Origin: Acidimicrobiia bacterium
GTDB lineage: Bacteria > Actinomycetota > Acidimicrobiia > Spongiisociales > ZC4RG35
Direction of reading: 5' to 3'
DNA length: 42,930 bases
Assembly: GCA_025922945.1 (NCBI GenBank)
Contig: JAICGW010000010.1
Span: forward strand, 1 to 42,930
Position 1 is the first letter of the stretch. Every line of letters begins with the position of its first letter. This document shows positions 936 to 42,930 of the stretch, piece after piece. The position numbers were made by a program, and so were the translations under genes. The notes below the pieces were generated by a model. That model was given only the letters and a program-made list of their open reading frames with translations. It had not been told where the DNA came from and ran no database searches.

Positions 936-941
936 CAGGCG

Positions 942-951
942 AGGCTACCGT
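942..951. promoter_or_regulatory. Divergent overlapping -10 elements sharing one TA
   Basis: AGGCTACCGT: minus-strand TAGCCT, 6 nt, GTG 935; plus-strand TACCGT, 7 nt, GTG 959. Confidence 0.6.
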
Positions 952-955
952 CGGA

Positions 956-1852
956 GTGGTGGAAGGCAGATTCGTCACCATCCCGAGCGGGCCGCTACTG
1001 ATGCGCGATTTCGGGGGCGACGGCCCTCCGATCGTCGCCGTGCACGGCCTGGGGGGATCCCTACTCAATTGGGTGCCGGCGGCCCCTTATCTCGCGACCC
1101 TGGGGCACTTCTACGCATTCGATCTGCCCGGCTTCGGCTACTCCCCACCTCACGGGTCGTATTCGATCTCCAACCACAAAAAGGCGACCGCTCAATTCAT
1201 CGAAACCCTTGGGGAAGAGGTGCTGCTGATCGGCAACTCGATGGGCGGCTTGCTAGCACTCTTGCTAGCGGCGGAACGAAGCGACTTGGTTTCGGGCCTG
1301 GTCCTCCTGGCCCCGGCTTCTCCCCCCCGCCTCGACGATCCGCGGATCGATCGGGCCGTGGCCAAGCGACTCCTCTTACAAGGCGTCCCGTTAGTGGGAG
1401 AAGCGGTCGTGAGCAGATACTGGAACTCAACGACCACCGCCCAGCAGATTCGGGACACACTCTCCATAGTTTGTCATCACCCCGAAACCATCCCGACCGA
1501 GGTTTGGCCGGAAGCCCTGGCACTTGCCGAGGCCCGGCGCCGGCAACCGTGGGCGATCGAAGCAGTGATCCGATCAGGGAGGTCGACCGGCGCATTTCTC
1601 GCCCGGAAGCGTGAATTCGACCAGGCCGTCAGACAAGTGCGGGCTCCGACGATGGTCATCCAGGGGGCTCATGATCGAGTGATCGCGGGTTCGGGTCCAG
1701 AGCGCATCGCGAGCCTTCGACCGGATTGGACCCATGTCGTGATGCCCGACGCCGGGCACTGCCCCCAACTCGAAGCACCATCACATTTCGTCGAGTTGGT
1801 AGAGAGCTGGTGGAGGCCGCAAAACCGGAGGCGAGTAACCTCGTCGGCATGA
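956..1852 (+). CDS. Alpha/beta-fold hydrolase
   Basis: ORF with VHGLGG oxyanion region, GNSMGG nucleophile elbow, DAGHCPQLEAP C-terminal His region. GTG 956 or GTG 959 start; stop overlaps aceE start (ATGA). Confidence 0.85.
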   Translation: MVEGRFVTIPSGPLLMRDFGGDGPPIVAVHGLGGSLLNWVPAAPYLATLGHFYAFDLPGFGYSPPHGSYSISNHKKATAQFIETLGEEVLLIGNSMGGLLALLLAAERSDLVSGLVLLAPASPPRLDDPRIDRAVAKRLLLQGVPLVGEAVVSRYWNSTTTAQQIRDTLSIVCHHPETIPTEVWPEALALAEARRRQPWAIEAVIRSGRSTGAFLARKREFDQAVRQVRAPTMVIQGAHDRVIAGSGPERIASLRPDWTHVVMPDAGHCPQLEAPSHFVELVESWWRPQNRRRVTSSA

Positions 1853-29911: not shown

Positions 29912-30361
29912 GTGGAGTTCCAACTCGACTTCGACTCGATCGTGAACATGGTCGTGGCGGCTGCGCTTTCAGCGGTGATTGGTCTCGAGCGGGAGTTACG
30001 CCACCAGGACGCCGGACTTCGCACCCACATGTTGGTCGGCCTCGGGGCTGCGCTCTTCGCGTCCGTCGGCATCGCTCTCGGCACCGATCCCACTCGCATC
30101 GCCGCCCAGGTGGTATCGGGAATTGGCTTCCTCGGCGCCGGAGCCATCTTCCGATCGGGAGAGACGATTCGGGGGCTAACCACGGCGGCGGGACTTTGGG
30201 TGGTCGCCTCCATCGGAGTCGCCGCCGGATCGGGGCTGATTCAGTTGGCGGTCATAGCCGCATTGGTCGGCTTGGCCATCCTTCATGGTCTGGCGCCGGT
30301 GGTCGATCGAATCAGCGACAAGCAGGCGCGAGCCGCGGGCGAGTCTCAAGAACTGTCATAA
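29912..30361 (+). CDS. MgtC/SapB family membrane protein
   Basis: VVAAALSAVIGLERELRHQDAGLRTHMLVGLGAALFASVG...VVSGIGFLGAGAIFRSGETIRGLTTAAGLWVVASIGVAAGSG. Confidence 0.95.
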   Translation: MEFQLDFDSIVNMVVAAALSAVIGLERELRHQDAGLRTHMLVGLGAALFASVGIALGTDPTRIAAQVVSGIGFLGAGAIFRSGETIRGLTTAAGLWVVASIGVAAGSGLIQLAVIAALVGLAILHGLAPVVDRISDKQARAAGESQELS

Positions 30362-31320
30362 ACCTCCGGATTGGCACAGGCCGGCAACCGCTCTCCAGCC
30401 AACCCGGCGGCGAGATTGTCAACGGCCATTTGGGCCATCGCCTTTCGGGTGGCGTGGCTGGCCGAGCCGAGATGAGGGATGATCAGGCAATTGTCCATCA
30501 GCACCAGCCGGTGGTCGGGGGGTATGGGCTCGGGATCGGTGACGTCGAGAGCCGCCCGGGCGATCTCTCCTGTGGCCAGCGCATCCGCTAAGGCCTCGGG
30601 GTCTATGAGCGGTCCGCGGGCAATGTTGACCAGAGTGGCGGTCGGCTTCATCAACTTCAGCTCGGCTCGGCCGATGAGCTGCCGCGTCTCGGATCTGAGT
30701 GGCGCCGACAGGATCACATGATCGGCCGATCGCAGAAGGTCGGGAAGCTGTAGGTATGACACGCCGAGCGTCTCCTCGGCGCTGACCTTGCGATTCGGTC
30801 CGGTGTAGAGCAAGCGACAATCGAATCCCCGCAGACGGCGGGCGATCGCTGAGCCGATCCGGCCCAGGCCGACGATCCCGACGGTCGAGTGATGGAGGTC
30901 GGCGCCCAGAAGCAGGTCGCTACTCCATCGCTCCCATCCCCCGTTTCGCACCAGCCGCTCGCCTTCGGGCAATCGGCGGACGGAGGCCAGCAGGAGGGCG
31001 ATGGCGGTGTCCGCGGTGGTGTCGGTCAGGACGCCGGGGGTATGTCCGACCGGAATCCTTAGCTCGGTACACGCCGCCAGGTCGAGGTTGTCGAGGCCAA
31101 CGGCGAGCTGCGAAATCACGCGCAGGTTCCGAGCACCTTCGAGCAGCCCACGATCTATACGGTCGGGAATCGAACAGAGCAGGCCCTCGATCTCGCCGAT
31201 GAGCGCCGCCAGCCTCCCGGGGTCCATCGGCTCCGGACCTGGTTCTTGCCAGCGGTCGCCGGCAGGAAGGTGTGCTTCGACCTCATCCGGCAAAGGGGCG
31301 GTGACGACGTATCGAAACAC
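30346..31320 (-). CDS. D-isomer-specific 2-hydroxyacid dehydrogenase
   Basis: VGIVGLGRIGSAIARRLRGFDCRLLY; TATLVNIARGPLIDPEALADAL; ALDVTDPEPIPPDHRL. Start reassigned to GTG 31320. Confidence 0.92.
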   Translation of the reverse strand: MFRYVVTAPLPDEVEAHLPAGDRWQEPGPEPMDPGRLAALIGEIEGLLCSIPDRIDRGLLEGARNLRVISQLAVGLDNLDLAACTELRIPVGHTPGVLTDTTADTAIALLLASVRRLPEGERLVRNGGWERWSSDLLLGADLHHSTVGIVGLGRIGSAIARRLRGFDCRLLYTGPNRKVSAEETLGVSYLQLPDLLRSADHVILSAPLRSETRQLIGRAELKLMKPTATLVNIARGPLIDPEALADALATGEIARAALDVTDPEPIPPDHRLVLMDNCLIIPHLGSASHATRKAMAQMAVDNLAAGLAGERLPACANPEVYDSS

Positions 31321-31326
31321 CCGCGC

Positions 31327-31336
31327 AGGGTAGGTT
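31327..31336. promoter_or_regulatory. Divergent overlapping -10 elements sharing one TA
   Basis: AGGGTAGGTT: minus-strand TACCCT, 6 nt, GTG 31320; plus-strand TAGGTT, 6 nt, GTG 31343. Confidence 0.65.
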
Positions 31337-31342
31337 GGGGAG

Positions 31343-32110
31343 GTGGGATCCAAGGTGAGCCTCTTGGCTCTGCTCGTGCTGGTCGCATGCTCGGGCGGCG
31401 ACCAACCCGGATATGCCCTGGTGGAGCCCACGGTGACGGTGCCGCCGACGTCCGTGGCGCCTCCCGTCACTCCCGTGTCAGCGTCGACCACCACAACGAT
31501 GGCCGTTCCGGTTTACGAGACGGCCGTGGCCCACACGAGCGAACCCGTCAGCATTTTCGTATCGCCTACCGTCTCCATCGAAACCCGTACCATCCCCGCC
31601 GAAACCATCCTTGGCACCCCCACGGTGATGCCAGTTCTGGAAGGTCCGGCCAACGGCTGGGTCAAGCTCTTACTCCCCGGTCGTCCCAACGAAGCCAATG
31701 GTTGGGCCCGGGCGGAGCAATTCCGATTTCAGCAAGTCGATCAGCGGATCGAGGTCGACCTCACAACCATGACTTTGACGTTTTTCGAGAAAGGCACGCC
31801 ACAGATCACCACTCCGGTGGCGATCGGATCGCCAACCAATCCCACGCCGCCGGGCGATTTCTTCGTCACCGACATCGTCGTCCTCACCGATCCCTCCGGC
31901 CCCTGGGGCCCATATGCACTCGGCCTCTCCGCTCGCTCGGACACCATCACCGAGTTCAATGGAGGTGACGGGATCATCGGCATCCACGGCACCAATCGGC
32001 CCGACCGGATTGGCGAGCCGGTCTCGCTCGGTTGCATTCGGGTCCCGAATGAGGTCATTGTCCAGATCGCCGAGCGAGTTCAGCTCGGCGTGCCGGTCAG
32101 CATCCGCTGA
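31343..32110 (+). CDS. L,D-transpeptidase (YkuD) lipoprotein
   Basis: LLALLVLVACSGG lipobox; ATPVAIGSPTNPTPPGDFFVTD; IGIHGTNRPDRIGEPVSLGCIRV catalytic motif. Confidence 0.92.
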   Translation: MGSKVSLLALLVLVACSGGDQPGYALVEPTVTVPPTSVAPPVTPVSASTTTTMAVPVYETAVAHTSEPVSIFVSPTVSIETRTIPAETILGTPTVMPVLEGPANGWVKLLLPGRPNEANGWARAEQFRFQQVDQRIEVDLTTMTLTFFEKGTPQITTPVAIGSPTNPTPPGDFFVTDIVVLTDPSGPWGPYALGLSARSDTITEFNGGDGIIGIHGTNRPDRIGEPVSLGCIRVPNEVIVQIAERVQLGVPVSIR

Positions 32111-41884: not shown

Positions 41885-41938
41885 CGGATTCCTCTGCCAA
41901 ACGCAGAATTTGTCACACCCCCTCTTCATTATGAACGT

Positions 41939-42930
41939 ATGTTCGAATGGGATGGTGAATTGGATCAGATCGATCGGTGGGAAGAAGAGTTGGTGTCCTG
42001 CGAAAGGCAAATCAACCGGCTCCGCTCCCGGCAGGCGGAATTAGTCGGGAAGCTCGATCCCCATCAGATCGCCTGGTCCTCGGGCGACCGCAACGTCACC
42101 GACTGGCTCTCCTCCACCCTCGACCTCTCCCATCAAACCGCCTCCCGACTCCGCACCCTGGCCTATTCGCCTCATTCCCAGATCAAAGCCGAGCTGGGAA
42201 AGGCGGGGATCTCCCTCGACCGGGCGGCCTTGTTGGTCGAGCTTTCCAAGACCGGGCTCGCTGAGTCAGAAGTGCTCTCTTTGTCCCCCGACTACTCGCT
42301 GGGAAAGCTCTATGGGATGCTGGAGAAAAGGAGAAGGGTCTCCCCGGAGGACTCCCAGACCTCCTTCTCCGACCGTTATCTGGTGATCCAGCCCTCCTTG
42401 GACCAATCCGCCCACAAGATCTGGGGGCTGGCGGTGGGTCCCGATGGGGAGATGATCGCCCATGCCCTCCACCAACGGGAGACCGAGCTCCCGGTCCTGG
42501 AAGACCAGACCACCGGCCAACGGCGGATCGACGCCCTGGCCGCGATCTGTCTCGACTCGCTCACCGGGACCGCCGGGGAGGAAGAAAGCGGAGAGAGGCG
42601 AGCGGTGACGGTGGCCGAGGTCTTTGTTGACGCCGCCTTGGCTTCGGAAACTTCGGGCGAGGCGGGGGTGACCCTCTCCTCAGGACCCAAGCTGGGACCC
42701 GACTTCCTGTCCGAGATCCTCTGTGGGGGAAAGGTGCGACTGATCGCCCAAGATCTCCACTGTCTCTACTACTCCGACCTGGGGGAGGCGGTTCCTCCCG
42801 CCCTCCGGGCCCTGGTGCTGGCCCGGGACCTGGGGATGTGTTCGATCGAGGGCTGTCGTTCCCGTTACCGGCTCCAGATCCACCACATCCATCCCCGTTC
42901 CCGGGGTGGGAGCCATCACCCCGACAACCT
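41939..42930 (+). CDS. DUF222/HNH endonuclease family protein (13E12-repeat type), partial at right edge
   Basis: Manual translation from ATG 41939: MFEWDGELDQIDRWEEELVSCERQINRLRSRQAELV...VTDWLSSTLDLSHQTASRLRTLA...VLARDLGMCSIEGCRSRYRLQIHHIHPRSRGGSHHPDNL (HNH start); open to window end, so absent from ORF track. Confidence 0.87.
   Translation, partial: MFEWDGELDQIDRWEEELVSCERQINRLRSRQAELVGKLDPHQIAWSSGDRNVTDWLSSTLDLSHQTASRLRTLAYSPHSQIKAELGKAGISLDRAALLVELSKTGLAESEVLSLSPDYSLGKLYGMLEKRRRVSPEDSQTSFSDRYLVIQPSLDQSAHKIWGLAVGPDGEMIAHALHQRETELPVLEDQTTGQRRIDALAAICLDSLTGTAGEEESGERRAVTVAEVFVDAALASETSGEAGVTLSSGPKLGPDFLSEILCGGKVRLIAQDLHCLYYSDLGEAVPPALRALVLARDLGMCSIEGCRSRYRLQIHHIHPRSRGGSHHPDN

Follow-up and report, generated by a model that had tools for sequence, protein, structure and literature searches.

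Bidirectional promoters in which two opposed -10 elements overlap were described by Warman et al. (2021, Nat Microbiol), whose work is cited in PMC12825309 and PMC10268837. At these promoters certain distances between the two transcription starts are favoured, 18 bp being the commonest and 10 and 23 bp also common (PMC12825309). The 18-bp form, TANNNTA, is the commonest form in E. coli, where competition between polymerases at bidirectional promoters has been demonstrated (PMC12825309). That a symmetric shared -10 can drive transcription in both directions, with 23 bp among the favoured distances, has been published before (PMC12825309, PMC10268837). A second group of described systems comprises the leaderless TANNNT promoters of Actinomycetota (PMC3160421; PMC3898074). 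Leaderless genes are treated in these two papers, as are divergent promoters lying close together; the relevant passages contain no leaderless class with a shared core.

The locus considered here, a 22-bp gap between two divergent genes of the window (the whole stretch of DNA that was analysed, 42,930 nucleotides), appears to be a leaderless variant of the known bidirectional promoters. Like them, it has opposed hexamers overlapping in one symmetric core, with a predicted distance of 23 bp; unlike them, both of its transcripts are predicted to be leaderless, so that the start codons would lie at the transcription starts, and the 22 bp constitute the whole intergenic region. It also resembles the leaderless promoters of Actinomycetota, having TANNNT some 12 bp ahead of the start codon and no evident -35, and differs from them in that two such promoters are opposed and overlap by TA. 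Judged from its sequence and that of its relatives, we put at roughly 0.7 the probability that the collapse of a two-promoter gap has here given rise to a complete bidirectional leaderless promoter of the 23-bp class.

The gap, its two genes and their probable leaderless setting

Read directly, positions 31318-31345 of the window are CAC-ccgcgc-AGGGTAGGTT-ggggag-GTG, and every detail given in the original prediction was exact. The intergenic region (31321..31342) spans 22 bp between two GTG starts, and a minus-strand hexamer TACCCT (31332-31327) and a plus-strand hexamer TAGGTT (31331..31336), each 6 nt from its start codon, overlap at the TA of 31331..31332, which would represent positions -12 and -11 of both promoters. 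On the minus strand lies an open reading frame for a D-2-hydroxyacid dehydrogenase (30346..31320, GTG start at 31320-31318), on the plus strand one for a YkuD L,D-transpeptidase lipoprotein (31343..32110, GTG at 31343-31345). Both enzyme identities, likewise part of the prediction, were confirmed by domain matches, to PF02826 (3.7e-58) and also PF00389 in the first product, and to PF03734 (5.7e-20) in the second. From the spacing of the -10 elements, and from the genome-wide peak at spacer 6, leaderless transcription starts are predicted at 31320 (minus) and 31343 (plus). If both mRNAs are leaderless, these starts would be 23 bp apart, a value predicted from geometry that falls within the 7-25 bp between divergent starts by which the bidirectional class is defined; as in its 23-bp members, the opposed -10 elements overlap across the strands (31331-31332). 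On both sides TANNNT precedes the start codon by about 12 bp (spacer 6), the arrangement of leaderless promoters. GGGGAG adjoins the plus-strand GTG at zero spacing, too near to serve that GTG, and no Shine-Dalgarno sequence is evident before the minus-strand start.

The genome to which the window belongs (G000) comprises 2.56 Mb in 179 contigs, with a GC content of 63% and eight WhiB-family matches, a sign of Actinomycetota; gene-based tests covered 1.75 Mb of it. When starts were picked by coding score alone, TANNNT was found before first genes in 12.0% of cases at 6 nt, 4.7% at 7 and 4.7% at 8, as against about 0.5% elsewhere, and a second genome, G015, has a comparable peak at 6-8. A -35 signal was absent from the aligned promoters, a lack also reported for Mycobacterium tuberculosis (PMC3898074). 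Furthermore, an A right after TANNNT is nearly absent at leaderless spacings in G000 and G015 (5/347 versus 11/225 at distant copies, p 0.02), a scarcity that would exclude the 18-bp bidirectional form TANNNTA at leaderless promoters.

A purged word and the class of shared cores

Throughout G000 (loci L001-L060 and L108-L147), TANNNT is depleted about 4-fold (0.25) on both strands relative to TA-N2-T and TA-N4-T. The depletion is 5-fold in sense coding, 6-fold in antisense coding and 2-fold in intergenic sequence, and the only places where the word is enriched, 3.7-fold, are leaderless positions. The window (1-42930) holds 58 copies versus 214 expected. Among the 64 words of the form XYNNNZ, TANNNT is the sole strong outlier (ratio 0.27; next 0.78), and for this reason a copy that stays in place is unlikely to be idle. 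Depletion was also found in plasmids of Nocardioides (0.14), Streptomyces (0.33) and Rhodococcus (0.52), and was not seen in a 50-kb sample of E. coli (0.94) or in 80 loci of mixed taxa (1.00). That spurious -10 motifs are selected against is a known general phenomenon (PMC1939733); in mycobacteria the density of TANNNT has been linked to noisy initiation (PMC4128351). The present case resembles these in that -10-like words are under-represented outside regulatory DNA; it differs in its extent, about 4-fold here as against the E. coli value, and in that divergent pairs needing the bidirectional core retain it. Read most simply, the pattern reflects selection against unwanted initiation, two-way promoters included, with the shared core persisting where two genes depend on it.

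The shared core, ANNNTANNNT, contains two opposed TANNNT. A simple gene-calling script gave 246 divergent pairs in the 1.75 Mb, and in eight of them ANNNTANNNT lies 6-9 nt from each start; the window's own 933-961, which the gene caller missed, brings the number to nine. The first gene caller had overlooked the gene at 959 and placed the 31320 start at 31227, and later counts used candidate starts within 120 nt. In a 16 x 16 grid of spacers, seven of the ten matches occupy the nine cells 6-8 x 6-8, in which seven control cores score 0 or 1. For gaps of 22-26 bp, the core is in register in 7 of 20 start pairs, whereas dinucleotide shuffles gave a mean of 0.06 and a maximum of 2 (2000 shuffles). 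The original prediction had proposed a motif class beyond coincidence, to be abandoned if no genome-wide excess appeared; an excess anchored to genes was found, and the proposal stands. Places of the form start-N-core-N-start, counted regardless of genes in 34 family genomes, number 6 at spacing 4-4, 35 at 6-6 and 16 at 9-9. The raw 6-6 count offers no clear excess over the 29 of a reverse-read control. We discarded that control for raw counts in the 34 genomes as unfair, given that ANNNTANNNT is outnumbered about 15-fold by its reversed form (112 versus 1659 in the 1.75 Mb of G000), and replaced it by off-spacing controls and the gene-anchored tests. In the same 34 genomes TANNNTA, the 18-bp form, when matched to leaderless spacing, is found at 4 places versus 35 for the 23-bp form and is thus the rarer of the two in this family, unlike in E. 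coli. Within the window, ANNNTANNNT occurs 4 times versus 19 expected by dinucleotide shuffle, and two of the four copies lie exactly between divergent starts. Divergent starts with ANNNTANNNT centred between them form a genuine class, which is enriched and at some loci conserved, and the shared-TA arrangement is rare yet repeatedly used in this group of Actinomycetota.

Persistence of the TA core across orthologous pairs, which the original prediction had proposed to check, was observed at several loci. Thirteen genomes of 7 genera retain the core A-A-R-G-TA-S-Y-C-T between ispD and a divergent small gene, with varying spacers (L188-L204); between kup and leuB the TA is shared in both members of the window's genus; and the window's second shared-TA gap (936..958; AGGCTACCGT, spacers 6 and 7) is conserved in the sister species G009 (C101:29659-29687), where it ends exactly at the start of the orthologue. 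No such persistence was seen at 31321-31342. That this gap recurs independently of 936-958 had been rightly claimed; the two are nevertheless not alike in conservation, as the sharing at 31321-31342 is seen, in the data at hand, in the window's genome only.

Some further observations concern the family's cores and palindromes. The ispD locus, where the divergent gene encodes an uncharacterised protein of about 110 residues that matches nothing in Pfam, is well suited for testing the shared-TA class, and in another shared-TA pair, at L054:12182-14072, an FAD-dependent oxidoreductase stands opposite a Rex-like redox repressor (PF06971 plus CoA_binding). At 41930-41946 the window contains a palindrome, GAACGTATGTTC, which we take to be LexA-like; it contains ANNNTANNNT and lies directly before a gene with an HNH-type C-terminus, and sites resembling it lie between divergent start-like codons in other family genomes (e.g. 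G024:C123:4810-4838). In G009 a long palindrome like CACCACGCAAACCTAAGGTTTGCGTGGTG recurs at more than 20 dispersed sites (e.g. L207:1315, L207:2367), and the same pattern found no match in the window's genome.

Relatives with two promoters and the competing explanations

The divergent dehydrogenase/transpeptidase pair is present in 14 other family genomes; these orthologue sequences are from draft genomes. Thirteen of the 14 have a separate leaderless-type -10 for each gene, in gaps of 39-74 bp. That of the dehydrogenase is TAGCCT-like, in the position of the TACCCT of the window, and that of the transpeptidase is GATANNNT, at 6-8 nt. A common core is not kept in the orthologous pairs of this locus, and G009, the nearest member of the genus, has lost the dehydrogenase. 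A scan of named genomes yielded only distant dehydrogenases (Chloroflexota, Proteobacteria and others) and no closer pair, and viral contigs gave one weak, partial and uninformative match. On comparison with these relatives, the sharing of TA at 31321-31342 is not ancestral, and in the window's lineage two promoters have probably collapsed into one, recently, through shrinkage of a longer gap. Since the shared state is found in one genome only, selection for sharing at this locus is not demonstrable. The original prediction went further in holding that the shared promoter couples the dehydrogenase with the transpeptidase. We rejected a conserved coupling of this kind because the relatives keep the divergent pair under two promoters, which likewise leaves any special coupling unsupported; the arrangement requires no functional link between the two enzymes.

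For the window's gap we infer transcription both ways, mutual exclusion and a deletion event. RNA polymerase with the principal sigma factor would recognise TANNNT on the same duplex in either orientation, the T-12/A-11 step of one promoter being the A-11/T-12 step of the other; because these steps coincide, only one polymerase at a time could open the site. Each transcript would begin at the G of its GTG, producing two leaderless mRNAs, and, the gap being only 22 bp, upstream promoter contacts would fall within the first codons of the opposite gene. As to its origin, a gap of 39-74 bp with two separate leaderless promoters would have shrunk by about 17-50 bp, so that a single TA came to serve both genes.

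The alternative that fares best, though we consider it unlikely, is that one -10 alone is active, while the other gene uses a promoter inside its neighbour or is hardly expressed, the second hexamer being a by-product of the shrinkage of the gap. Once TA is present, a second hexamer needs only a single A or T (background about 0.18), and the sharing at this locus is absent from the relatives, both of which suit such a by-product. However, of 11 pairs with one hexamer in register, 7 also have the other, as against the 18% expected from base frequency (p 0.001), and the relatives have a leaderless-type -10 at both genes. Moreover, with TANNNT depleted 4-fold genome-wide and 5-6-fold inside genes, idle copies tend to go.

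A bidirectional promoter also presupposes that the two starts are correctly placed. It is very improbable that the true starts lie elsewhere, for instance at the plus-strand GTG 31355 with GGAGG as its ribosome site, and that the geometry is accidental. The starts are computed ones, and the GGGGAG beside the GTG resembles a Shine-Dalgarno site for GTG 31355 and could belong to one. Both starts are, however, fixed by orthologue N-termini: the dehydrogenases of relatives begin MxRVFV... or similarly and align with VFRYVV... of the window's gene, and their transpeptidases have the lipobox cysteine about 16-17 residues after the start, the same distance as from GTG 31343. A signal peptide starting at 31355 would lack any basic residue and reach the cysteine after only 11 residues, and the shuffle and spacing controls likewise speak against accident. 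In addition, 13 of the 14 relatives have TANNNT at 6-9 nt upstream of each start, so that promoter position is conserved. Because the N-termini align and TANNNT recurs in this way, there is good backing for the two starts and for the leaderless reading, and the two genes, each with spacer 6 in the window, are as leaderless-looking as the prediction had described them. Least probable of all is that the gap is a regulator's operator, a symmetric site holding TA by chance: a LexA-like palindrome, CGAACNTANGTTCG, does coincide with some other shared-TA gaps of the family, but the 22 bp have no evident dyad symmetry beyond A-NNN-TA-NNN-T, and no conserved palindrome is evident in the orthologous dehydrogenase/transpeptidase gaps.

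Significance for the family

With the bidirectional leaderless promoter as the preferred reading, two known elements, leaderless TANNNT promoters and symmetric bidirectional -10s, would have merged into a very small arrangement able to start two divergent genes. For this family of Actinomycetota we consider it an even chance that such divergent leaderless pairs represent a distinct minimal architecture, in which the entire regulatory DNA is a gap of 22-25 bp with the core ANNNTANNNT, formed by the collapse of two promoters and kept by selection against a strong genome-wide purge, and in which the two genes compete for one polymerase. The relatives with separate promoters and the shared state found here form a natural before-and-after series, which could serve to test how bidirectional promoters originate and whether sharing forces mutual exclusion. 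Furthermore, because TANNNT has been purged from these genomes, shared cores can be recognised in the sequence unusually reliably, an aid to the annotation of start codons and the prediction of promoters in uncultured Actinomycetota.
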